From Plebeiibacterium marinum (lineage in GTDB: Bacteria; Bacteroidota; Bacteroidia; Bacteroidales; Marinilabiliaceae): a stretch of 64,000 nucleotides of DNA. This document shows positions 37,520 through 48,679 of this stretch, in pieces. Under the pieces are notes generated by a model, which worked only from the letters and a program-made list of their open reading frames with translations, was not told the origin of the DNA and did not search any database. The stretch spans positions 1 to 64,000 of the forward strand of contig NZ_JAPDPI010000007.1 in assembly GCF_026013615.1 (NCBI RefSeq). Reading direction: 5' to 3'. Made by a program: the position numbers and the translations under genes. Every line of letters starts with the position of its first letter. Within the stretch, counting starts at the first letter, position 1.

Positions 37520-39940
37520 ATGATCTCAGGTACCGGAATCAGTTTTGATGAATTTAAAAAAGAAGTCCTTCGCGATTATCGCATTGGGCAGGTAAGCCGT
37601 AATTTAAGTTTAATAGGCCGTAAGGAGGTTTTAGGAGGAAAAGCAAAGTTTGGCATCTTTGGCGATGGAAAAGAAGTAGCCCAATTAGCCATGGCAAAGC
37701 AGTTTAAAGAAGGAGATTGGCGCTCGGGATATTACCGCGACCAGACTTTTATGCTAGCCTCAGGGATGCTTACCCCGCAACAGTTCTTTGCATCATTATA
37801 TGGTGAAACCAATACTGATTTAAACCCTGATAACGGGGGGCGGTCTTTTAACAATCATTTTGGAACCCGGACCATTACTGAAACAGGAGAATGGAAAGAC
37901 ATTGCAAACATCAAGTGTACCTCTGCAGATATTTCCCCAACGGCAGGTCAGATGCCACGTTTAGTGGGGTTAGCCTATGCCTCAAGGTTATACCGGAACA
38001 ATCCGGCCCTTTCAGACAAAACAAAGTTTAGCAATAAAGGTAACGAAGTAGCTTTTGGTACCATTGGAGATGCCAGCACTTCTGAAGGCCACTTTTTCGA
38101 AACGATTAATGCTGCAGCGGTACATCAAATACCCATGGTAGTTTCGGTTTGGGATGATGGATACGGAATTTCTGTCCCCAAGAAAATCCAAACCGTAAAA
38201 GAAAGCATTTCAAATGCCTTAAAAGGTTTTGAAAAGGGGGCAAAAGAAAAAACCGGAATTGAAATCTACAAACTAAAAGGATGGGATTATGCCGGGATTT
38301 GCCAGGCATATGAAGAAGGTGTAAAAAAATCCCGTAAGGAGCACGTGCCTGTATTATTTCATATCGAAGAACTTACCCAGCCCATTGGCCACTCTACCTC
38401 CGGATCTCACGAGCGATACAAATCTGAGGAACGCCTGCAATGGGAAAAAGAGTTTGACTGCCTGAAAAAAATGAGGGAGTGGATTATTGAACGTAACCTG
38501 GCCAATGATGGCGAACTCAACGCAATTGAACAGGAAGCACTTGTGGAAGCCCGAATGGCACAAAAAACAGCCTGGGAACAATTTAATGCCCCCTTAAAAA
38601 CAGAGAGAGACTCCCTGATTAAACTGATAGAACAAAAAACCTGTATCTGCGCGGGCAGCAATAACAATAAAATCAACGATCTTATAAATGATCTTAAATC
38701 GGCATACACCCTGAACAGGAAAGAAATTCTTTCAACAGCCAGAAAGATCCTTCGACATATCTGCAGCTCATGTGCAAAACCCGACAGTTTAAAATCCGTG
38801 CTTCAAAAATGGATTGCAGAGTACAGGGAAGTGACCCATGTTATGTATAACGACCGTCTGTATGCCGAAGATGAATATGCAATCACAAAAATACCGGTAA
38901 TACCACCTCACTATCCTGCAAATGTTGAAAAAGTTCCCGGAAGGGAAATACTAAGAGATAACTTTGACCAGTTATTTGAAAAGATTCCGGAACTGGTCAG
39001 CTTTGGAGAAGATACCGGCGTATTGGGAGGTGTAAACCAATCGATGGAAGGCCTGCAACAAAAGCATGGCATTCATCGGATATGGGACGAAGGGATCAGG
39101 GAAGCAACCATCATTGGCACCGGGTTAGGACTGGCACTAAGGGGATTGCGCCCCATTGCCGAAATACAGTATTTCGACTACCTTTTATACGGCCTGCAAA
39201 CCTTAAGTGATGATGTGGCCACGCTCAGATACAGAACAAAAGGAGGGCAAAAAGCTCCGCTGATAGTAAGAACCCGGGGACACCGTTTAGAAGGCATCTG
39301 GCATTCCGGATCCCCCACAAGCATGGTCATCAATTCCATCAGGGGCATGCACGTTTGCGTTCCTCGCGACATGACCAGGGCTGCCGGAATGTACAATACA
39401 CTGCTAAGAGCAGACGACCCGGCATTGGTTATAGAACCGCTCAACGGATACCGCATCAGGGAACCTCGTCCTGAAAACATTGGAGAGTTTAACATTCCTC
39501 TGGGCATACCTGAAGTACTGCATGTTGGACACGACGTTACCCTGGTAACCTATGGATCATGTGTTAGGATTGCCCAGGAAGCCGTTACTCAATTAAATGA
39601 TATAGGTGTTTCTGTTGAATTGATTGATATACAAACCTTGCTTCCGTTTGACTTATATGGTGTGATACTTGAATCCGTAAAAAAAACAAGCAGGATTGTT
39701 TTCTTTGATGAAGATGTTCCGGGGGGAACAACGGCTTATATGATGCAGCAAGTAATAGAAAAGCAAGGAGGATATAAACATTTGGATTCTACCCCTCGAA
39801 CGGTAACTGCCAAAGACCACAGACCGGCCTTTGGAACCGATGGAGACTATTTTTCAAACCCCAATGCAGAGGATGTTTACGAAACCATCTATGATTTGAT
39901 GAGCGAATCAAATCCGGAGAGGTTTCCAGAGATATATTGA
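37520..39940 (+). CDS. 2-oxoacid dehydrogenase E1, fused alpha and beta subunits
   Basis: This is an 806-residue thiamine diphosphate enzyme for decarboxylation of branched-chain or related 2-oxoacids. The alpha half has the ThDP site GDASTSEGHFFETINAA (about 187-203) followed by DDGYGISVP (about 217-225), and QPIGHSTSGSHERYKSEE. A linker of about 110 residues (330-440) with cysteines at CICAG and CSSC joins the beta half, which has SFGEDTGVLGGVNQ (about 494-507), DEGIREATIIGTG and EIQYFDYLLYGLQTL. Fused E1 is common in Bacteroidota. E2/E3 are not in the window. The ATG at 37520 follows AT-rich DNA containing TAACTTTG and TAGTTTTG boxes. Confidence 0.88.
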   Translation: MISGTGISFDEFKKEVLRDYRIGQVSRNLSLIGRKEVLGGKAKFGIFGDGKEVAQLAMAKQFKEGDWRSGYYRDQTFMLASGMLTPQQFFASLYGETNTDLNPDNGGRSFNNHFGTRTITETGEWKDIANIKCTSADISPTAGQMPRLVGLAYASRLYRNNPALSDKTKFSNKGNEVAFGTIGDASTSEGHFFETINAAAVHQIPMVVSVWDDGYGISVPKKIQTVKESISNALKGFEKGAKEKTGIEIYKLKGWDYAGICQAYEEGVKKSRKEHVPVLFHIEELTQPIGHSTSGSHERYKSEERLQWEKEFDCLKKMREWIIERNLANDGELNAIEQEALVEARMAQKTAWEQFNAPLKTERDSLIKLIEQKTCICAGSNNNKINDLINDLKSAYTLNRKEILSTARKILRHICSSCAKPDSLKSVLQKWIAEYREVTHVMYNDRLYAEDEYAITKIPVIPPHYPANVEKVPGREILRDNFDQLFEKIPELVSFGEDTGVLGGVNQSMEGLQQKHGIHRIWDEGIREATIIGTGLGLALRGLRPIAEIQYFDYLLYGLQTLSDDVATLRYRTKGGQKAPLIVRTRGHRLEGIWHSGSPTSMVINSIRGMHVCVPRDMTRAAGMYNTLLRADDPALVIEPLNGYRIREPRPENIGEFNIPLGIPEVLHVGHDVTLVTYGSCVRIAQEAVTQLNDIGVSVELIDIQTLLPFDLYGVILESVKKTSRIVFFDEDVPGGTTAYMMQQVIEKQGGYKHLDSTPRTVTAKDHRPAFGTDGDYFSNPNAEDVYETIYDLMSESNPERFPEIY

Positions 39941-40242: not shown

Positions 40243-41268
40243 TCAATACCCTTCCTTCACTCCAAAAGTCTTTTCAAGTTTAACCTTATCGTTGCCCCTT
40301 GAAATTACAATAATATAATCTCCTTGGTTTAGAGACTGGTTGTCGTCCGGATCTTTCACTAGCTTACCTTTTATTACCAGCCCTATCAAAATCACATTTA
40401 AGTCCTTTTTTAAACTAACAAAAGCATCTATGTAATTCATCCCCATATATGGATTATCCTGTGTAATTTTATATTGCTGAATATCCTGATCGTTTTCTAC
40501 CACACTGGTCGAGATCAGGTCTGAGGTATATTCAGCCACATGCGGCTCAAACAAATAACTCGCCACCATACGCGAAGCCACTTCATGACGGGCCACAACA
40601 TGCGACACCCCGGTATTTTCAAGTGTTTCCTTTAAATCGGGATTGGTACAATTGATTATGATATTTAAATCAGGGTATTCCTTTTTAATGTTCAACACAA
40701 AAACAAGCGTATCCGTGTCTTCCATAAAATTTACAAAAACAGCCTTACTTTTACGGATATTTACTTTTTCATATGCCAGCATATTTTTAAAATCTGCAAA
40801 CAAAGCAAAACTATTATCGCTTTCATACAAATCATTAAAAAGCTCCAGGTCATTTTTTGAATTGGTAACCAATGCAATTTTGTGCCCTGCATAATAAATT
40901 TGATTGGCCACCTGACGGGCAAACTCGCTCCAGCCAATTATAACGTAATGATCCTCGAAGTCGGTTCCAAAAAATCCTTGTTTCTTTTTTTCCATATATG
41001 TGTTGATTCTGTATGTTATTTCACCAATAAGAAAGCCAAGTATCCCCAGACTCCCCAAAATAATAAATAAACCCAGTATTTTACCACCTAAGGTTACCGG
41101 AAAGTAATCGCCATACCCAACTGTTGTTAATGTCACCACGCTATACCACACCGCATCTGTCAACGATTTAATATTAGCATTGGGATCTGATTTCTCCAAT
41201 ATGGATATGATGTAAATCAGCAGAATATATACTACAACTCCGGCAGCAAACAGTTTTCTATTTTTCAT
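40243..41268 (-). CDS. two-helix potassium channel with RCK (TrkA) domain
   Basis: This is a 341-residue channel. Two helices (about 7-24 and 62-85) flank a pore loop with the K+ selectivity filter TVGYGD (49-54). A cytoplasmic RCK domain follows: a TrkA-N Rossmann part beginning HYVIIGWSEFARQVANQI (the usual glycine motif is altered to GWSEFA) and a TrkA-C part (NVILIGLVIKGKLVKDPDDN) that gates on ligand. It is the last gene of the polyamine/PspA cluster, separated from speD by a 251-bp gap holding a foldback element. A link between polyamines and channel gating is an inference. Confidence 0.88.
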   Translation of the reverse strand: MKNRKLFAAGVVVYILLIYIISILEKSDPNANIKSLTDAVWYSVVTLTTVGYGDYFPVTLGGKILGLFIILGSLGILGFLIGEITYRINTYMEKKKQGFFGTDFEDHYVIIGWSEFARQVANQIYYAGHKIALVTNSKNDLELFNDLYESDNSFALFADFKNMLAYEKVNIRKSKAVFVNFMEDTDTLVFVLNIKKEYPDLNIIINCTNPDLKETLENTGVSHVVARHEVASRMVASYLFEPHVAEYTSDLISTSVVENDQDIQQYKITQDNPYMGMNYIDAFVSLKKDLNVILIGLVIKGKLVKDPDDNQSLNQGDYIIVISRGNDKVKLEKTFGVKEGY

Positions 41269-41320
41269 CTATTAAAATATTTAGCCTGATACAAATCCGA
41301 TAACAGATTAGTTTGTACTA

Positions 41321-41487
41321 GCAAGAAAACTCGTTTTTTTTTCCAACCCACACCCTCCAACTCCCCCGAATACAAGTTCGGAACAGGCTCTAATGGGAGT
41401 GACTCAACCCACAGTGCGCGAGAGGCTTCCCCTTCAGGGGACGAGGGGTGAGCGATGGGGTTAACTATAAAACAGGAGTTTTCTTGC
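41321..41487. repeat. foldback (MITE-like) element, copy A
   Basis: This 167-bp element is bounded by inverted GCAAGAAAACTC (41321-41332) and GAGTTTTCTTGC (41476-41487), with GC-rich internal hairpins around CTTCCCCTTCAGGGG and CACAGTGCG. The second copy, at 49814-49951, shares the ends and the internal CACAGTGCG and GGGGTGAGCG words. It sits between speD and the K+ channel gene. No transposase is encoded. Confidence 0.7.
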
Positions 41488-41519
41488 AGAGACGATGTCA
41501 TATATTATAAAATCAATAG

Positions 41520-41894
41520 CTATAAAGAATATTCCGGATTACCACGAGGTTTGGTAACCTTAATTTCATCATCCCAATTTAGGTTATAATCCATTTTTTC
41601 GCAAAGTGATTTAAAGATATTTGTCTTAGATTGGTTACAACTCGACAATTCAATATAAGTTACATTGCTTTCTGTAAATGTATGGATAGCAAGATGCGAT
41701 TCGGCTAAAAGCCAGAAAGCAGTGTATCCATTCACCGGGAAACGATGGGCGTTATAATCCAGGATTGTAAACCCCGATTGTTTTAATGTATTTTCAAAAA
41801 CAGCACGCAATTCACCTTCATCCACAAGCTGGATCCATCCTTTCAGGTTCACTATCTCCGGTTCTAGTTTTATGTATTCTAATTTGTCCTTCAT
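41520..41894 (-). CDS. speD: S-adenosylmethionine decarboxylase proenzyme
   Basis: This is a 124-residue prokaryotic (SpeH-type) AdoMet decarboxylase, which makes the aminopropyl donor for spermidine. The self-cleavage site is ESHLAIHT: cleavage between E65 and S66 would create the pyruvoyl cofactor from S66. H71 and C86 (ELSSCN) match the residues needed for processing and catalysis. Length is normal. It starts 24 bases after the spermidine synthase gene stops, so the two are coupled. The N-terminus (KDKLEYIKLEPEIVNLKGW) is slightly longer than in the shortest homologues. Confidence 0.85.
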   Translation of the reverse strand: MKDKLEYIKLEPEIVNLKGWIQLVDEGELRAVFENTLKQSGFTILDYNAHRFPVNGYTAFWLLAESHLAIHTFTESNVTYIELSSCNQSKTNIFKSLCEKMDYNLNWDDEIKVTKPRGNPEYSL

Positions 41895-41918
41895 TTACTT
41901 TTTTCTGCCAGGTTATTT

Positions 41919-43472
41919 CTAATACAAATCCCAATTACCCTTTAAATAATACTTATACAAAACAGGGTCATGAAGCTTATTGACTTTTACGGAGTCTCTT
42001 TGACCCGGATAGATTTCTTTGCCAAAGGATGTAATCAATTGCATTGCTTCATTAGTAATCCATTGCGTCTGTATATCCGTAAAATGCAAATCTTGCAATA
42101 CTTCCTTCAACGGATAGCCTTCCGGTTGCTTCACCCCAAGACTCCACCCCCATTCTCCCAGGGTAATCACATGATTATGCAGGGGTACCACCTCAAAACC
42201 TGCACTTCGCATGGTACCCACAATACACTTAAATGCTTTGGTAGCAAAATACGGGCTGCCTGCCTGAGTTACAATAACACCTCCGGGACGGAGATGCCGG
42301 TACGCTATCTTATAAAACTCTTCCGAATAAAGCCTGTTAAGCTCTATGTTCCTTGGATCGGGCAAGTCAACAATAATAACATCATAAAAATCCTTGTTTT
42401 CACTTATATAAGTAAAACCATCCCTGTTTAAAACCGCCACCCTTGAATCTGATAACGAGTTATGGTTCAAGCGGGTTAACAAAGGATATTCTTTCCCCAA
42501 TCTTGTCATGGCAGGATCCAGGTCCACAAGGGTAATATTCTCAGCTGCCTTATATTTTAAAATCTCGCGGACAGCACAACCGTCGCCCCCACCTAAAACC
42601 AGAACATCCTTAGGATGCGGATGTAAACTCATGGCAGGATGTACTAAAGGTTCATGATACATCATTTCATCCATAGTACACAATTGTTGGTTCCCATTCA
42701 GATAAAGCCAAAAATCATCTTTCCATTGGGTAACAACAATCCGCTGGTATTTTGTTTGCTCGGCATAAATAACCTTATCCTTGTATTTCTGCTGTTCTCC
42801 GTAAACAATAATCGGTTCGGCCATAAACACGCCACATACCAAAACTACAACAATCCCAGCTATAGCCGCATTAAATGGGATTTTATATGCCGGTGAAATA
42901 AAATTCTTTAATGAAAAATAGACAACAACGGCAACACTAAAATTTATAATCCCCAAAACAAATGGAGTATAGTTTAATCCCAAAAACGGAATCCCAATAA
43001 AGGCAAAGAATACTCCCCCCAACAAACTACCATAATAATCATTTTCCAGCACCTTGGAAATATTAACCCTTAAATCTTCATACTGATCATTGATCCGGGT
43101 AACCAAAGGAATTTCCATGCCTATCAACAAGCCAATCAAGATGCTGCAGGCATAAATAATAACCGCCAGCGATGCAGTATAGGCTGAGGCTGTATATACA
43201 ACCAAAGGAACAAAGGACACCACCAAAGAAAGAATGAACTCAAGTATCAGAAATTTCTCTGTAAGGTGAGATATAAACGATTTACTGATGCGACTCCCCA
43301 ACCCCATAGAGAACATCATGGTAGAAACAATTAATGCCCACTGGATAGTTGAATCTCCCAAAAAATGTGTAGCCAGGGTCGACAATAGATATTCTGCAAC
43401 AATTCCACTAAAACCTGTAGCAAAAATAGCAGCCATCAATATGGCAGAATACTTGTTCTTAATTTTAAACAT
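41919..43472 (-). CDS. speE: spermidine synthase with N-terminal membrane domain
   Basis: This is a 517-residue aminopropyltransferase. The first ~215 residues hold about 7 hydrophobic helices (beginning AILMAAIFATGFSGIVAEYLL, core FATGFSGIVAEYL) and the C-terminal half is the catalytic Rossmann domain. Motifs are QLCTMDEMMYHEPLVHPAM (core DEMMYHEPLVHP), VLVLGGGDGCAVREIL and IIVDLPDPRN, with the SAM-type GGGDG loop and acidic pair of SpeE. It should transfer the aminopropyl group of decarboxylated AdoMet (from SpeD downstream) to putrescine or a related amine at the membrane. The frame opens at a TTG at 43496, but that region is a terminator-like hairpin; the ATG at 43472 is preferred. Confidence 0.87.
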   Translation of the reverse strand: MFKIKNKYSAILMAAIFATGFSGIVAEYLLSTLATHFLGDSTIQWALIVSTMMFSMGLGSRISKSFISHLTEKFLILEFILSLVVSFVPLVVYTASAYTASLAVIIYACSILIGLLIGMEIPLVTRINDQYEDLRVNISKVLENDYYGSLLGGVFFAFIGIPFLGLNYTPFVLGIINFSVAVVVYFSLKNFISPAYKIPFNAAIAGIVVVLVCGVFMAEPIIVYGEQQKYKDKVIYAEQTKYQRIVVTQWKDDFWLYLNGNQQLCTMDEMMYHEPLVHPAMSLHPHPKDVLVLGGGDGCAVREILKYKAAENITLVDLDPAMTRLGKEYPLLTRLNHNSLSDSRVAVLNRDGFTYISENKDFYDVIIVDLPDPRNIELNRLYSEEFYKIAYRHLRPGGVIVTQAGSPYFATKAFKCIVGTMRSAGFEVVPLHNHVITLGEWGWSLGVKQPEGYPLKEVLQDLHFTDIQTQWITNEAMQLITSFGKEIYPGQRDSVKVNKLHDPVLYKYYLKGNWDLY

Positions 43473-43494
43473 TAACAAGAAAAGATGAAAAAAC

Positions 43495-43524
43495 AAAAGG
43501 CACTACTGTCAACCTGTGCCTTTT
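43495..43524 (-). terminator. terminator-like hairpin directly in front of speE
   Basis: On the minus strand AAAAGGCAC and GTGCCTTTT form a 9-bp stem with a 12-base loop, followed by GTTTTTT. It lies after the DUF350 gene and only about 20 bases before the speE ATG, so it could end the upstream transcript or act as an attenuator of speE. Confidence 0.75.
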
Positions 43525-43539
43525 ATTATGAATATTATT

Positions 43540-43637
43540 ATCAATTTACAATGATCAAATTACAATGATCAATGACCAATGACCAATATTAACTAATGAC
43601 TAATGTCCATTGACTATTGACCATTGACTAATGACCA
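43540..43637. repeat. AT-rich simple repeat tract, TAATGACC type
   Basis: About 98 bp of degenerate 7-10-bp units (ACAATGATCAA, CAATGAC, TAATGAC, CATTGAC, TATTGAC) fill the gap between DUF350 and speE. It resembles the second part of the tract at 36965-37075. No spacers of unique sequence occur, so it is not a CRISPR array. Confidence 0.7.
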
Positions 43638-43638
43638 T

Positions 43639-44514
43639 CTACAAACACCAGGTAATCAATACAGATCCCCCAACATAAGCAAATGCCTCAATAACCGCAG
43701 CTCCTACATTAGGATGCTCCTGGTTCACTATCTCATCAGTTAGCCGTTGTCCCGGAAGCAAAATTTTATCAGTTAAAAAACGCATCACCGGCAACAATGC
43801 CAAGCCAAGTACCAGTTCAAAACCAGCTTCGGTAAATGTTGGCCCCCATCCTTCAAAATCACCGGCTATGCCAAAACGGATCAGGTTTGCAATAGCAATC
43901 AAGGCACCTGCAAAACCAACTCCCACAGCTACATTGTCCTTTTCTATATGGTCGTGAACATCATACGGTGTTATCAACTGGTAAACCCATGCCCCAATAA
44001 TCATTGCCAACTGGCCAAAAGCCCAGAATACTACAGCTGTTAAAAACCCATGAGCCCATCCGCCCATATCTGTTTCTCCGGTTACTGCACCAAAAATAAT
44101 CAAACCCGAAGCCACAGAAACCGCTCCTTCAATAATTCCGGTTCCTGAGTTTCTATCTGTGATAATTTCCTTTTTAACAGAAAACTTTCGCAAAATGATT
44201 TTATCATTCAGCCAGATCGAAAGGTTCAACAATATAATAGCTAAGGCTCCGTATGCCATAATATCAACCAGATCATTTACCAAGCCTCTTGTAGGACCAA
44301 CAATAGCACTCCCTATGGCCAGTAACAATCCAATAAAATAACCGGTATGAGCAAAAGCAAATGCCACATTATCCTTTTCAACCAACTCTTCCTTTACACT
44401 AAAGCTCTTGTTTACTAATTGATAAACCACTTTTCCCAGGAAGAAAATCACAAATCCTGCGGAAATATAGGCTATCGCATCATATAATATGATTGAAATA
44501 TCTGATAAATTCAT
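43639..44514 (-). CDS. DUF350 membrane protein, internally duplicated (YjfL-like)
   Basis: This is a 291-residue protein with about 8 hydrophobic helices arranged as two DUF350 units of ~140 residues. Each unit has a matching block after a charged turn: VEKDNVAFAFAHTGYFIG (about 44-61) and IEKDNVAVGVGFAGALIA (about 190-207). E. coli YjfL is a single unit of ~130 residues, so this is a tandem fusion. The role is unknown; the family sits next to PspA-type genes in several genomes. It follows the Ser/Arg-rich gene by 24 bases and is separated from speE by a simple repeat and a hairpin. Confidence 0.85.
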   Translation of the reverse strand: MNLSDISIILYDAIAYISAGFVIFFLGKVVYQLVNKSFSVKEELVEKDNVAFAFAHTGYFIGLLLAIGSAIVGPTRGLVNDLVDIMAYGALAIILLNLSIWLNDKIILRKFSVKKEIITDRNSGTGIIEGAVSVASGLIIFGAVTGETDMGGWAHGFLTAVVFWAFGQLAMIIGAWVYQLITPYDVHDHIEKDNVAVGVGFAGALIAIANLIRFGIAGDFEGWGPTFTEAGFELVLGLALLPVMRFLTDKILLPGQRLTDEIVNQEHPNVGAAVIEAFAYVGGSVLITWCL

Positions 44515-44538
44515 ATTTTTTAAATTATAGGGATTATA

Positions 44539-45354
44539 CTATTTACCAAAACCTCCGCTACGCGAACGCGATGATGAACTACTATAGCGAGATGAGCTCC
44601 TGGACTTTTGCGAATAACTTGACCCCGAAGAATAACTCCTTGACTTGGTAGTTGTAGCAGATCGGGAAACCTGGCTTCTTACCTGGCTTTTGAAAGAAGA
44701 TGGCTTGGATGCCCACGTTGTGTTTTTGCCAGTTCGTGACGAGGTATAAGAACGGGTTCCGTACATATTTGAACCGGAAGGCCCGTAATACGCCCTTCGT
44801 CCATAATAACCTCCATAATAATCATCCCAATATGATCGGCGAACCGGGTATGTCATCATATTAAACATCGACGACATAAAGGCATATCTTCCGTAAAACT
44901 CCCAAAAAGAACCACCATCTCTTTGTACCCAATGCCCATATTTTTCATTGCCAACATAGTGGTTATAACCAGCAGGACTAGCTACTTTGGATAGCTTACC
45001 ATTCTTTTTTGAGGCAATTTCCATACCCATATTATTTACATTACTGGCAAAAAAGCTATCGCTCACTTTTTCCCAATCAGTATCTTTTGCCACAACTGTA
45101 TCTGGTTTCTCTACAATTACCTGGTATTGGTGATAATAACCATTACTCCTGGAATCCATATCCAAAAGAATTATAGAAAAATTAGGTTCATTGGCCAATG
45201 ATCTGATCAACTTATCAACCGGAGATTTTTCCCAGCTGCCCGACACCACAGGCTGCTGGCTATAATCCCTGTTCGACTTCCTGTTACTACAGGTTTTTAG
45301 AATAAAAAAACCAATAATAACAGCAATTATAATCTTTGCGAGTTTATTATCCAT
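44539..45354 (-). CDS. membrane-anchored protein with Ser/Arg-rich tail ending GGFGK
   Basis: This is a 271-residue protein of no recognised family. A hydrophobic N-terminus (about 6-21, ending FFILKTC) anchors it, possibly as a lipoprotein at C22. A globular middle (about 48-165) contains KLIRSLANEPNFSIILLDMDS and NHYVGNEKYGHWVQRDGGSFWEFYGRYAF (core GHWVQRDGGSFWEFYGRY). A Tyr/Gly-rich patch (YYGGYYGRRAYYG) leads to a low-complexity tail rich in Ser, Arg, Thr and Lys (about 195-271), ending SGGFGK. The gene position is that of E. coli YjfM (DUF1190) in the yjf operon. Whether the tail is a substrate for modification is speculation. Confidence 0.75.
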   Translation of the reverse strand: MDNKLAKIIIAVIIGFFILKTCSNRKSNRDYSQQPVVSGSWEKSPVDKLIRSLANEPNFSIILLDMDSRSNGYYHQYQVIVEKPDTVVAKDTDWEKVSDSFFASNVNNMGMEIASKKNGKLSKVASPAGYNHYVGNEKYGHWVQRDGGSFWEFYGRYAFMSSMFNMMTYPVRRSYWDDYYGGYYGRRAYYGPSGSNMYGTRSYTSSRTGKNTTWASKPSSFKSQVRSQVSRSATTTKSRSYSSGSSYSQKSRSSSRYSSSSSRSRSGGFGK

Positions 45355-45374
45355 TTGTTTTGCTGTTTGTTTTA

Positions 45375-45914
45375 TTATGACGAAGGTAATATATTGGAAA
45401 TTTCAAATTCCTTAATCTTTTTACCTACAGAAGCTTCAAATTCTTTTTCATCCCACTGTTCAATGCAAAGGATATTCACCCCATCCTCATCTTCAAAGTC
45501 CCACGAGCGGAACTCTTCCCATGTTTCCCCCTTGGCAATATCATGAAAATAACCAGGAGCTTCATTCTCCAGATAATAGGCAATTCCTTTATATGTTATT
45601 TTTTTTGGCGGTTTCTGTTGATGATGCAATGTTTCTGTAAGACTATCATCCAAAGCCCTTACTTTAACCTTTTGGGATATGGAAAGTTCCAATTCATCAT
45701 CTTCTGCCAAAGAAAGAAACTGATTCGTTTTTCCATCAGTAATTTTAAATTCCCGGGTAAAATAGTTATCACCCCAATCGTACTCATAGATAGCCTTTAC
45801 TTCCCAGGTGGCAAGGTCGTAATCAAAAACAAAACCAACATCCAGGTCTTTAACCTGAATGTTGGTGCTATCATAATGAGGTTCTCTTTTTTTAAAAATA
45901 TCAAAGATACCCAT
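45375..45914 (-). CDS. DUF4178 domain protein
   Basis: This is a 179-residue soluble, acidic protein matching DUF4178. Blocks are VKDLDVGFVFDYDLATWEVKAIYEYDWG (core GFVFDYDLATWEV, about 28-40), TREFKITDGKTNQFLSLAEDD and GETWEEFRSWDFEDEDG. Predicted as beta-rich with no signal peptide, hence cytoplasmic. It follows pspA by 12 bases and occupies the place of E. coli YjfK (DUF2491). No biochemical role is known to me. Confidence 0.82.
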   Translation of the reverse strand: MGIFDIFKKREPHYDSTNIQVKDLDVGFVFDYDLATWEVKAIYEYDWGDNYFTREFKITDGKTNQFLSLAEDDELELSISQKVKVRALDDSLTETLHHQQKPPKKITYKGIAYYLENEAPGYFHDIAKGETWEEFRSWDFEDEDGVNILCIEQWDEKEFEASVGKKIKEFEISNILPSS

Positions 45915-45926
45915 GTATTAACAATG

Positions 45927-46628
45927 TTATTGCTGTTTAAGCTTAGCCTTTAACTCTTCCAACGAGTTAGAAGCCTTAACGTTTTTATCCGACAGAACAT
46001 CGTCAATTTCCTCATCGATACTCCTGTTTTCCATTGAAATTTCGCCATAAGCCTCACTCATCGCTTCTTGCTGGGCTACTTTCTCTTTCATTTTTTCCAG
46101 CATAGAAACCGTACCAGAACTATCAATACCGCTTAACTGCTTATTAATTTTTTGTGTTGCACTACTTACCCTGGCCCTTGCCTTTAGGGTGCGCAATTCA
46201 TTTTCATAGCTTGTAATAGTGCTTTTTAGTTTCTTAATATTTTTATCCAGCTGTGAGATATTGGTATCAAAGCGATTTACTTCTTCCTGCGCCCTTGAAG
46301 CAGCTTCCACGGCTTCTTCTTTACGAGACAAGGCTTCTGTTGCCAACCGGTCTGCTTCTGCAACTTCTAATTCGCCCTTTTCGGCTTTTTGAAGTAAAAG
46401 AATAGCCTTTTGCTCATAATTTTTGGCCATTTCCTTATTGGTATTCAAATCTTTCCTGCTCCGGATAGCCATCGCTTTTACCTCTGCAAGTGCCTGAAGG
46501 CTCTTATCCAGATCCTGTTTTAGATCACGGATACCTTGCTCGGTCATTTTGATAGGATCTTCTAACTTATCAACAATAGCATGTGCCTCTGCCTGTCCTA
46601 CTCTGAAAATTCTTTTAAAAATACTCAT
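45927..46628 (-). CDS. pspA: PspA/IM30 (ESCRT-III-like) membrane-stress protein
   Basis: This is a 233-residue, almost wholly helical protein (coiled coil about 20-200) with an N-terminal amphipathic helix (MSIFKRIFRVGQAEAHAIVDKLEDPIKM, core IFKRIFRVGQAEAHAIVD). The block EDPIKMTEQGIRDLKQDLDKSLQALAEVKA (core DPIKMTEQGIRDL) marks the PspA family. PspA proteins form rods and coats that bind negatively charged or damaged inner membranes. It closely resembles YjfJ in context. It lies 12 bases from its neighbours on both sides, so it is co-translated with them. No PspBC/PspF regulators are present. Confidence 0.9.
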   Translation of the reverse strand: MSIFKRIFRVGQAEAHAIVDKLEDPIKMTEQGIRDLKQDLDKSLQALAEVKAMAIRSRKDLNTNKEMAKNYEQKAILLLQKAEKGELEVAEADRLATEALSRKEEAVEAASRAQEEVNRFDTNISQLDKNIKKLKSTITSYENELRTLKARARVSSATQKINKQLSGIDSSGTVSMLEKMKEKVAQQEAMSEAYGEISMENRSIDEEIDDVLSDKNVKASNSLEELKAKLKQQ

Positions 46629-46640
46629 GTGTTTACTTTT

Positions 46641-47036
46641 TTAGGCTTTTGAAAACTCTATTAATTCCTCTGAATACTCTGACAATAACAACTTCAATGA
46701 GTTCAATGTTCCTTCCAACTCATTTAAATCCAGATTTTCCAGTTGCAAAGTATCTCTAAAAATCACTCTGTTTCCTGTTTCATCAAGCGTAAATGCCCCA
46801 TGAACTATTTCCCGGTTTTTTTTAAGAAGTGATTTATAGATTTCCTCTGAACCAGAGCTCATTTCAAAAAGAAGTCCTTCTATTATTACAATACTGTCTT
46901 CACAATCTATAACAATATTGCTGATCCCGTCTTCTTCTTTTTCAATAACTACTAATTCTTCATTTACATCCTCTGATACAATCCTGTATTCAAGGTCTAA
47001 TAGGTAATTTTTTACCTTGTTAAAATATTCGCTCAT
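46641..47036 (-). CDS. YjfI/Tir-chaperone-like small protein
   Basis: This is a 131-residue acidic protein, first gene of the cluster. It lacks a signal peptide and shows the alpha/beta pattern of type III secretion chaperone-like folds (CesT/YbjN): helix KVKNYLLDL, strands ELVVIEKEEDGISNIVIDC, helix SLLKKNREIVHGAFTLD (about 69-85), and strands NRVIFRDTLQLENLDL. Such proteins are often annotated as 'molecular chaperone Tir' in Bacteroidota, and E. coli yjfI (DUF2170) has the same place before its pspA-like gene. Equivalence to YjfI is an inference from position and fold pattern. It ends 12 bases before pspA. Confidence 0.75.
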   Translation of the reverse strand: MSEYFNKVKNYLLDLEYRIVSEDVNEELVVIEKEEDGISNIVIDCEDSIVIIEGLLFEMSSGSEEIYKSLLKKNREIVHGAFTLDETGNRVIFRDTLQLENLDLNELEGTLNSLKLLLSEYSEELIEFSKA

Positions 47037-47239: not shown

Positions 47240-48679
47240 TTATTGTTTACGACGTACAATTAGTAATCCTAAAAACATAAAGCACCCGTTCATAATCAGC
47301 TTTTCATAACCCAGGGCAAAACCAAACCAGCGCAATGCATTATAATCCAAAACTCCCGTAATTACAGGTGCTACAATTGCTAAAACCGGAATCCAGTTAT
47401 CTTTAACCTCAATTTTGGTAAACAGGCCAAAGGCATACATACCCAACAAAGGGCCGTAGGTGTACCCGGCCAATATAAATATAGTGCTGATAATGCTGTC
47501 TGCTTTAAACACCCTGAATAGAATAATCACCAACATCAGTAGCACTGAAAATGAAAGATGCACCAGCATCCTTTTTCTTTTGGAGAGTTCCTCACCATGT
47601 TTTGTTCCTAATATATCTACCGAAAACGAGGTGGTTAAGGAGGTCAGGGCGGAATCTGCACTACTGTAGGCAGCAGCTACCAGGCCTATTATAAAAAACA
47701 CCCCTACTATTGCGGGTAATGATCCGCTGTTTACAATAACCGGGAACAAATCATCTGAACGTTCGGGCAATGCGATTCCCTGCTGATGCGCAAAAGTATA
47801 AAGCAATACTCCTAATGAAAGGAAAAGTATGTTTGTTGGAATAAAGGCAAATCCATACCATTTCATGTTTTTTTGTGCGTCCTTTAAGTTTTTACACGAA
47901 AGGTTTTTCTGCATCATATCCTGATCCAGCCCGGTCATAACAATGGTAATAAACGCCCCGGTAACAAACTGCTTAAAAAAGTTTTGCTTCGAATGCCAGT
48001 CGTCAAAAACAAAAACACGACTCAGCTCACTGCTATTAATCAGGTCTACAACTCCCGGCATATCAAGTTGCATAGATTTAGCAATATAAACTATGGTAAT
48101 AACAACAGAGGTAAGCATAAACAGGGTTTGAAGCATATCTGTCCATATAATGGTTTTAATCCCACCCCTGAAAGTATAAATCCAAATTAAGGCTATGGTT
48201 ATAAAAACGGTAATAGCAAACGGAATCCCCAATGCGTTAAACAAACTAATTTGAAGCACGTTGGCCATTAAATACAGTCGTGCCGAAGCGCCAATTGTTC
48301 TTGATACCAAAAAAAGCCATGCCCCGGTTTTATAACCAAAAAAACCAAAGCGTTTTTCGAGGTAGGTATATATCGATGTCAGGTTCAACCTGTAATACAC
48401 GGGAAGCAACACATGTGCTATAACCAGGTAACCAATAAAATACCCCCCTACCATTTGAAGATAGGAAAACTGGGTTGCCTTTACCCAGCCCGGTACGGAG
48501 ATAAATGTTACACCCGACAAACTGGCTCCGATCATACCGATGGAAACAATATACCAGGGCGACTGCCTGTTTCCTAAAAAAAAGTTTTTGTTATCTGATT
48601 TTTTCCCGGTAACATATGAAATTATCATTAAAACGATAAAATACAGTGCCACAAGCAATCCGGTATATTGTGGTTTCAT
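47240..48679 (-). CDS. sodium:solute symporter (SSS family)
   Basis: This is a 479-residue transporter with about 13 hydrophobic helices. The SSS core is visible: GMIGASLSGVTFISVPGWV (core GASLSGVTFISVPG, about 50-65), YTFRGGIKTIIWTDMLQ (about 168-184), GLDQDMMQKNLSCKN (about 248-262) and AAYSSADSALTSLTTSF (about 337-353). The A..SSADSALTSL segment is the helix with the Na2-site serines and threonine. Substrate unknown; with Na+-NQR in the genome a sodium gradient would be available. It is separated from the PspA cluster by 203 bp of AT-rich DNA. Confidence 0.9.
   Translation of the reverse strand: MKPQYTGLLVALYFIVLMIISYVTGKKSDNKNFFLGNRQSPWYIVSIGMIGASLSGVTFISVPGWVKATQFSYLQMVGGYFIGYLVIAHVLLPVYYRLNLTSIYTYLEKRFGFFGYKTGAWLFLVSRTIGASARLYLMANVLQISLFNALGIPFAITVFITIALIWIYTFRGGIKTIIWTDMLQTLFMLTSVVITIVYIAKSMQLDMPGVVDLINSSELSRVFVFDDWHSKQNFFKQFVTGAFITIVMTGLDQDMMQKNLSCKNLKDAQKNMKWYGFAFIPTNILFLSLGVLLYTFAHQQGIALPERSDDLFPVIVNSGSLPAIVGVFFIIGLVAAAYSSADSALTSLTTSFSVDILGTKHGEELSKRKRMLVHLSFSVLLMLVIILFRVFKADSIISTIFILAGYTYGPLLGMYAFGLFTKIEVKDNWIPVLAIVAPVITGVLDYNALRWFGFALGYEKLIMNGCFMFLGLLIVRRKQ

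Follow-up and report, generated by a model that had tools for sequence, protein, structure and literature searches.

The closest described relatives of the locus studied here are operons assembled around PspA-family proteins. In its available text, the study of Ravi et al. 2024 (PMC11237479) describes an operon group in which a CesT/Tir-PspA dyad is found with a DUF4178 protein, a lipoprotein (Ctha_1186), a DUF350 protein with eight transmembrane segments (8TM) and a spermidine-synthase-like protein fused to a 7TM domain, as well as another group that contains an ATP-grasp ligase and a K+ channel; polyamine sensing or "aminopropylation of other substrates" is proposed there, and the same text names no acceptor and no C-terminal lysine. 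The locus analyzed here lies at 40243-47036 of the first 64,000 nucleotides of contig NZ_JAPDPI010000007.1 of Plebeiibacterium marinum (this whole stretch is called the window) and consists of eight minus-strand genes. As far as that text goes, the window shares with the second major group of Ravi et al. the CesT/Tir-PspA dyad, DUF4178, the lipoprotein, DUF350 (in two stretches here) and the 7TM-fused SpeE, and adds to it an S-adenosylmethionine (AdoMet) decarboxylase, SpeD, and an RCK channel. An earlier, sequence-only reading of the window had seen its novelty in the gene combination, which is mostly in print since the CesT/Tir-PspA operon group is described in PMC11237479. In the open literature, PspA together with DUF350 and a spermidine synthase, or DUF4178 together with DUF350, was found only in that paper.

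The available part of PMC12803844, citing Li et al. 2019, states that bacterial membrane-aminopropyltransferase fusions are experimentally uninvolved in spermidine/spermine biosynthesis. Like the window, the systems of Li et al. reportedly pair AdoMet decarboxylase with membrane-fused spermidine-synthase-like proteins. The E. coli sets yjfI-yjfC and ygiB-ygiC also resemble the window in combining a polyamine-type enzyme with a partner that has a hydrophobic segment at its N-terminus and a tail rich in Gly, Ser and Arg, and the yjf operon in addition has DUF350 and a PspA-family protein. The E. coli sets, however, have an ATP-grasp ligase and a partner ending in Gly-Gly (GG), whereas the window has SpeD, a membrane-fused SpeE (SpeE-TM) and a partner ending in lysine. 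Li et al. reportedly left the acceptor of the membrane-fused spermidine-synthase-like proteins unknown, in contrast to the concrete acceptor that we propose for the window system, and we know of no acceptor for membrane-fused SpeE proteins.

What is new here is that a lysine at the end of the partner protein is coupled to SpeE-TM and exchanged for GG with the ligase. On balance, we consider it probable that the cluster is a protein-modification system in which SpeE-TM would aminopropylate the C-terminal lysine of its anchored partner, a Ser/Arg-rich lipoprotein (LipoSR), with decarboxylated AdoMet (dcAdoMet) made by SpeD. The features of the window that carry this proposal are as follows.

44539..45354, minus strand: LipoSR partner lipoprotein (Ser/Arg-rich), 271 amino acids, without a Pfam match
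44542..44547, minus strand: C-terminal Gly-Lys (GK) codons of LipoSR, a conserved end and the proposed acceptor
41919..43469, minus strand: SpeE-TM (Spermine_synth, 143 bits; NCBIfam NF002956, 564 bits, cut-off 472)
41520..41894, minus strand: SpeD, AdoMet decarboxylase homologue, 124 amino acids (AdoMet_dc PF02675, 59 bits, E 7.8e-16)

The C-terminal lysine of the partner proteins

LipoSR carries a cysteine (Cys22) just past its N-terminal hydrophobic helix in 35/35 aligned sequences, followed by a folded domain (residues ~45-185) and a disordered Ser/Arg-rich tail; its AlphaFold model has a predicted local distance difference test score (pLDDT) of 80.6, with residues 238-242 and 244-265 below 50, and its fold has no PDB match at E<=0.001. 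It probably corresponds to Ctha_1186, the lipoprotein listed by Ravi et al. (PMC11237479). All 42 homologues, that of the window included, end in GK. Entropy is 0 at positions -1 and -2 but lies between 1.1 and 3.3 bits from -3 to -30, while the two terminal codons vary synonymously (Gly GGA/GGT/GGC/GGG 15/13/11/3; Lys AAA/AAG 38/4). A silaffin-like modification of internal lysines in the Ser/Arg tail was considered and dropped because the internal lysine positions are not conserved.

This fixed end bears on a different substrate for the enzyme. SpeE-TM could aminopropylate a lipid headgroup, e.g., phosphatidylethanolamine, with the Lys-ended partner binding the membrane through its cationic tail as an adaptor or sensor, as the fusion of the enzyme to a membrane domain, the cationic Ser/Arg-rich tail and the PspA neighbors at some loci would suggest. 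Such a tail, however, needs no fixed final lysine, yet the last two positions alone are invariant; moreover, a lipid substrate would leave unexplained both the GG end that goes with the ligase and the absence of lysine in the two DUF4247 loci without SpeE-TM nearby (see below), and we regard it as unlikely.

The coupling of lysine to SpeE-TM extends well beyond LipoSR. In total, 98 loci were scanned (80 + 17 + the window) and SpeE-TM was called in 91, which have a Lys-ended partner in 79 cases (LipoSR in 45, Firmicutes-type in 8, GK-ended small proteins in 11 and proteins ending in His-Lys, HK, in 15), a GG-ended partner in 2 and none found in 10. An open reading frame (ORF) ending in GK or HK lies within 6.5 kb on the SpeE strand in 80/91 loci, a few of them by chance, and on the opposite strand in 21/91. 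The seven loci left out of these counts since the ORF caller missed their SpeE-TM (L080, L081, L082, L088, L091, L101 and L119) gave Lys-ended partners with the ending-blind models described below in six cases, all but L082. The Firmicutes-type partners are a DUF4247 protein (L097, L112), a protein without an assigned family (L076, L083) or a DUF4178 fusion (L084, L103, L106, L109), ending in GGGxxxGK or nearly so; in Acidobacteria and others, the partner is a peptide of 56-118 amino acids (or a fusion to a larger protein) that mostly ends in GGK or RGK, and Bacteroidota loci of the variant that carries an amine-oxidase-like gene have a peptide of 53-83 amino acids with one hydrophobic segment and the end HK. 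In the family-model searches, LipoSR gave no matches to the DUF4247 or small-peptide partners, nor they to it; a relationship between the two small-peptide families is possible, as the HK-ended peptide of L090 falls in the first of them.

Family models made blind to the ending, by removing the last 12 or 4 residues, were searched over 12226 ORFs, and all 75 members recovered in three partner families are Lys-ended: 47/47 for LipoSR (last 12 residues removed, all GK), 13/13 for the Acidobacteria-type peptide (12 GK, 1 HK) and 15/15 for the Bacteroidota peptide of 53-83 amino acids (all HK). As background, 149/1312 non-LipoSR ORFs of at least 100 amino acids in the same loci are Lys-ended, a figure that includes some other Lys-ended partners. 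In a SpeE-TM tree of 96 rows, the switches between GK, HK and GG need only 3 changes, thus pointing to few independent origins of the partner ends (L045, L046 and L048, with two SpeE-TM copies each, were omitted; their LipoSR partners end in GK). Mere ancestry of the lysine end is nevertheless disfavored because the lysine is kept in partners without model-detected similarity, namely LipoSR, DUF4247 and the small peptides.

Further genomes and plasmids gave the same pattern. The LipoSR profile had 8 matches in 395 Bacteroidota genomes, all running to the end of the model; the two not already known (L181, L182) are neighbors of SpeE-TM and again end in GK. DUF4247 had 12 matches in 299 Bacillota genomes: the 10 with SpeE-TM nearby, eight of them new, all end in GK, and neither of the 2 without SpeE-TM within ~6 kb is Lys-ended (GGGRIMRRR; FGSGKIRKRGRR). 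These two proteins, at L171 (genome G648) and L172 (G687), have extended Arg-rich ends and stand beside PspA and DUF350. Plasmids gave 13 records with SpeE-TM, near-duplicates among them; all 12 full-length ones, from six genera, have a Lys-ended partner in the cluster, with the ends GPSHK/GPTHK (Novosphingobium, 3), SSGK (Alteromonas, 2), RHGK (Gemmatirosa), ESGK (Ensifer), NRVK (Tritonibacter, 2) and YGSHK (Burkholderia, 3), and no partner was recognized in the thirteenth (Rhodovulum), where SpeE is truncated. The plasmid sample is not fully blind because only in Novosphingobium ES2-1 and Alteromonas were partners taken by position (the annotated coding sequence directly upstream of DUF350), those of unannotated records being taken by position and ending together and those of Burkholderia only after checking the other strand.

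Gly-Gly ends and the ATP-grasp ligase

The sequence-only reading had remarked that the ATP-grasp ligase is absent from the window, and the absence extends further: no GSP_synth ligase matched in the whole genome (98.2% complete), under a search that gave control matches in E. coli and Caulobacter. This need not imply a gap in the cluster, since the ligase belongs to a sister system with another partner tail; the window partner, which ends in Gly-Lys and lacks a Pfam match, is not a DUF1190 protein with a GG end. All five DUF1190 proteins end in GG: YgiB, YjfM and three obtained by surveying 185 genomes of a single proteobacterial class. Each of the three survey genomes also encodes GSP_synth, in two of them adjacent to DUF1190. 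RefSeq names E. coli YgiC and YjfC as peptide-spermidine ligases, for which Pederick et al. 2023 is said to be the primary paper, and these enzymes would act on the GG ends of their partners.

Two Bacteroidota hybrids, L125 (G158) and L126 (G064), carry SpeD, SpeE-TM and a GSP_synth ligase (255.8 bits in L126), and in both the partner ends in SYGG. In these loci, SpeD, the ligase and the GG-ended partner are divergent from SpeE-TM, which has GGGEG and not GGGDG. On the other side, GSP_synth was not found in 11/12 Lys-tail genomes. Altogether, in the clear cases the last partner residue tracks the enzyme, lysine going with amine chemistry and glycine with carboxylate chemistry. A polyamine at the C-terminal end of a protein is also known from the eukaryotic SUMO-spermidine conjugate, an amide on the Gly-Gly carboxylate made via E1/E2 according to the available text of PMC12270671, whereas the proposal for the window is an aminopropyl group on a lysine amine. 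Among the literature matches listed, subscription papers and bioRxiv being outside their scope, the available text reports no C-terminal lysine acceptor for aminopropyl transfer.

SpeE-TM, SpeD and the proposed aminopropylation

In SpeE-TM, seven hydrophobic segments make up a membrane domain (~residues 1-228), to which an aminopropyltransferase domain (~230-516) is fused. The AlphaFold model of SpeE-TM has a pLDDT of 93.0 and gives segments five and six as one long helix. The closest relative of the protein, from Plebeiobacterium sediminum, is 83% identical, which suggests a Marinilabiliaceae-type Bacteroidota as the source of the window. Membrane-fused SpeE proteins are present in many phyla and are annotated as polyamine aminopropyltransferases. 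The PDB structures closest to the catalytic domain are the Thermus triamine/agmatine aminopropyltransferase (1uir, 3anx), the Pyrobaculum SpeE (7xif) and the Medicago thermospermine synthase (6bq2), with spermidine synthases ranking closely behind; the Thermus, Pyrobaculum and Medicago enzymes are soluble and use small-molecule acceptors, whereas SpeE-TM is membrane fused. The fold and the catalytic Asp/Gln/Tyr motifs are kept, and most catalytic and donor-binding positions are invariant among 60 sequences. One position differs: two residues downstream of the conserved Gln, B. subtilis SpeE has an acidic residue, Asp, which presumably holds the far amine of putrescine, but the window has Q402-A-G-S-P and its relatives Q-A/S/T-T/G/C-S-P, versus Q-T-D in B. 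subtilis 1iy9, and the aligned Thermus, Pyrobaculum and plant enzymes likewise have no acidic residue there. SpeD retains Ser66 (the processing site), His67 and His71 in 44/44 sequences, aligned with the solved AdoMet decarboxylases 2iii and 1tlu; it passes the Pfam cut-off and scores 48.5 bits against NCBIfam TIGR03330, under the cut-off of 75.65. A neofunctionalized SpeD (ornithine/arginine decarboxylase), as described in the available part of PMC10407285, is not favored because SpeE-TM is adjacent.

We propose the following sequence of events, in which the aminopropyl reaction on the partner lysine is inferred from sequence. SpeD would make dcAdoMet in the cytoplasm, and SpeE-TM, taking over the role of the ATP-grasp ligase, would transfer the aminopropyl group onto the side chain of the lysine that ends the partner, at its amine, to yield ...Gly-Lys(N6-aminopropyl). 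This end would resemble the glycyl-spermidine amide that YgiC/YjfC-type ligases could place on Gly-Gly partners; the two products would be one carboxylated carbon apart, so that both systems would have a tethered polyamine at the end of a protein. The tethered cationic arm could then act under envelope stress on DUF350, on the K+ channel, or on the membrane surface or anionic surface groups. Polyamines are classical K+ channel blockers, and the polyamine tip, on its flexible chain, may plug or ligate DUF350 or the neighboring channel.

The side of the membrane on which this would take place divides the proposal. The mean number of Lys and Arg residues per loop of SpeE-TM is, in order, 1.85, 0.18, 2.93, 0.18, 2.90, 0.55 and 2.88, the high values belonging to the N-terminus and to loops 2-3, 4-5 and 6-7. 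Because these charges occupy alternate loops of seven hydrophobic segments, SpeE-TM is predicted to have its N-terminus inside and its catalytic domain outside the cytoplasm, on the same side as the lipoprotein tail. Tentatively, and with less assurance than for the reaction itself, we therefore consider that an outward-facing SpeE-TM could make N6-(3-aminopropyl)lysine on the lipoprotein with dcAdoMet that its membrane domain has moved across the membrane. Such a modification would be new, spread over many phyla, and the amine-side counterpart of ATP-grasp spermidinylation. The same lysine could be modified by a cytoplasmic catalytic domain before export of the tail, as dcAdoMet is produced in the cytoplasm and the sister ATP-grasp ligase, which needs ATP, must act there too; given the placement of the catalytic domain outside by the alternate-loop charges, this arrangement appears doubtful.

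Free polyamine synthesis, the first option of the sequence-only reading, which spoke of locally made spermidine acting on a PspA-coated membrane and a K+ channel, does not fare well. On this view, SpeD and SpeE-TM would work at the membrane to turn a diamine into spermidine or some other free polyamine. SpeE-TM does keep the catalytic motifs of aminopropyltransferases, bears the NCBIfam name polyamine aminopropyltransferase and is the sole strong spermidine-synthase match in the genome; a second SpeE candidate (C133:3564-3788) was rejected, as it scores as a general methyltransferase. Putrescine is also probably available, given adjacent genes for AguA and AguB homologues on another contig (221 and 299 bits; NCBIfam cut-offs 382 and 410; AguA above the Pfam cut-off) and, on a third contig, a gene resembling ADC (187 bits, cut-off 369). 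By homology, however, the genome has a separate carboxyspermidine-type route to spermidine: the gene for the carboxyspermidine decarboxylase CASDC (nspC; 534 bits, cut-off 409) adjoins a carboxyspermidine dehydrogenase gene (CASDH), whose product resembles carboxynorspermidine synthase (406 bits, curated cut-off 800) with a Sacchrp_dh_C domain above the Pfam cut-off. This route, the lack of a GSP_synth match in the genome and the statement on bacterial fusions in the available text of PMC12803844 weaken the local-spermidine reading, which moreover leaves the conserved lysine end and its exchange for GG unexplained. The purpose of the cluster is thus probably not free spermidine, an explanation that we hold to be very unlikely, and it is the second option of the earlier reading, an aminopropylated product, that fits.

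Several points weigh against aminopropylation of the partner lysine by SpeE-TM. Aminopropyltransferases modify small amines, and to our knowledge none acting on a protein lysine is known. The proposed reaction and product are predictions from sequence, and an outward catalytic domain would require dcAdoMet outside the cell. The hybrids L125 and L126 retain SpeE-TM despite a GG-ended partner, so that SpeE-TM must act differently there or ahead of the ligase. The Lys-tail genome G399 has a weak GSP_synth match (37 bits), and G648 and G687, whose DUF4247 proteins end in neither Lys nor GG, carry divergent GSP_synth genes elsewhere (135 and 139 bits); the two loci concerned were scanned for SpeE-TM within ~6 kb only. 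Some of the small partners first came to notice through their ending or on visual inspection of a gap, and the seeds of the ending-blind models were drawn from them. Among the 10/91 loci without a visible partner, L041, L051, L054, L059, L085 and L086 are cut by a contig end, and L039, L044, L096 and L108 extend further to one side or both. In L045-L048, finally, the LipoSR gene lies 5-8 kb from the best-scoring SpeE-TM, a second SpeE-TM adjoining it in L045, L046 and L048.

If the lysine is indeed aminopropylated, this would add a protein modification, would explain why SpeD is retained in a genome able to make spermidine another way, and would correct a common misannotation as polyamine aminopropyltransferase. 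The two PspA-linked operon families, with SpeE-TM and with the ATP-grasp ligase, would then represent two chemical routes to polyamine-tipped envelope proteins. The conserved C-terminal lysine across several families of neighbor proteins makes the acceptor idea concrete, as a predicted shift of +57.058 Da on one peptide.

Gene neighborhood and layout of the cluster

Neighbors were counted in the 52 SpeE-TM loci that reach 6 kb or more in each direction (full-flank loci), "near" meaning within 6 kb. SpeE-TM is near DUF350 in 35, SpeD in 31, DUF4178 in 27, LipoSR in 24, PspA in 15, the K+ channel profile (Kch) in 13 and CesT in 11; the DUF350 and DUF4178 counts are lower bounds, as these profiles miss some divergent genes (extra DUF4178 clusters were seen). 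The order CesT-PspA-DUF4178-LipoSR-DUF350-SpeE-TM occurs in 11/91 loci and all eight genes in order in 4/91 (the window, L033, L034 and L064), so the gene order is not due to chance, and the genes form a recurrent unit, as the sequence-only reading had supposed in treating them as one module. Its PspA-centered framing, by contrast, was too narrow: PspA and CesT are accessory to the SpeE-TM system, being near in only 15/52 and 11/52 loci. The tie it drew between the K+ channel and the cluster holds, since the channel is near in 13/24 full-flank loci with LipoSR versus 0/28 without it, and the profile also matched beside SpeE-TM in 5/8 DUF4247 loci outside this set (L174, L176-L179); it matched in 2/3 DUF1190 loci as well (L169, L170).

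A gene resembling flavin amine oxidases (cluster 5) raises the question of whether another enzyme uses the lysine. Lying within 6 kb of SpeE-TM in 15/15 HK-ended and 6/11 GK-ended small-protein loci, it makes oxidation of lysine or aminopropyl-lysine conceivable, and the C-terminal lysine could then serve that enzyme, or a sorting or assembly signal, while SpeE-TM modifies something else in the same complex. The gene is, however, near in only 8/45 LipoSR loci and 0/8 Firmicutes-type loci (14/64 GK-ended loci altogether), whose partners are Lys-ended too, and the gene common to all variants is SpeE-TM; this explanation is unlikely in our view. The Bacteroidota HK variant (L118, L120-L123, L127-L129, L092, L093, L095, L110, L111) consists of SpeD, a DUF4178 protein, the tiny HK-ended peptide, a small DUF350, SpeE-TM and the amine-oxidase-like protein, which might act on aminopropyl-lysine, often together with a protein of ~340 amino acids without a Pfam match; in L095, the DUF4178 protein and the HK-ended peptide occur as two tandem copies. 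In the Flammeovirgaceae loci L052 (13033-14226) and L053 (same place), a second, divergent spermine-synthase-like protein (397 amino acids in L052, Pfam E 9.9e-9) is encoded next to a channel, SpeD and an amine-oxidase-like gene, divergently from the main cluster.

An ORF check of the window sequence, with Pfam and NCBIfam, confirmed the eight minus-strand genes at 40243-47036 in the order that had been given for them. The remaining features are the following.

46641..47036, minus strand: CesT/Tir-like chaperone (YjfI/YbjN-type), 131 amino acids (CesT_Tir_1, 181 bits, E 1e-53), accessory
45927..46628, minus strand: PspA/IM30 protein, 233 amino acids (PspA_IM30, 151 bits, E 3.6e-44), accessory
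45375..45914, minus strand: DUF4178 protein, 179 amino acids (PF13785, 87 bits, E 2.3e-24)
43639..44514, minus strand: doubled DUF350 membrane protein, 291 amino acids (PF03994 in two stretches, 190 bits)
43488..43520, minus strand: hairpin GGCAC...GTGCC plus T-run upstream of SpeE, terminator-like by eye, single copy in the window
40243..41268, minus strand: K+ channel with TVGYGD filter and RCK (TrkA-N), 341 amino acids (Ion_trans_2 and TrkA_N), frequent partner

The first five genes are spaced by 12, 12, 20 and 24 bp, within the 12-24 bp noted earlier. The gap between DUF350 and SpeE measures 169 bp to the ATG at 43469, or 142 bp if counted to the TTG that opens the longest ORF, and contains the hairpin and T-run; across the family this junction has a median of 12 bp (<=50 bp in 42/58). 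The speD-channel gap is 251 bp in the window, versus a family median of 3 bp (<=50 bp in 12/14). In the nearest relatives, L033, L034 and L064, SpeE is likewise preceded by a gap of 72-113 bp, and the gap ahead of the channel reaches 428 bp in L033. Between speD and the channel, a 78-amino-acid ORF (window 41265-41501) without an NCBIfam match spans the palindrome CCCCTGAAGGGG and is probably a non-coding insert. The cluster is flanked by an SSF-type transporter (window 47240-48679) and an E1-dehydrogenase/transketolase fusion (37520-39940), both of which also flank it in the closest relative, L033.

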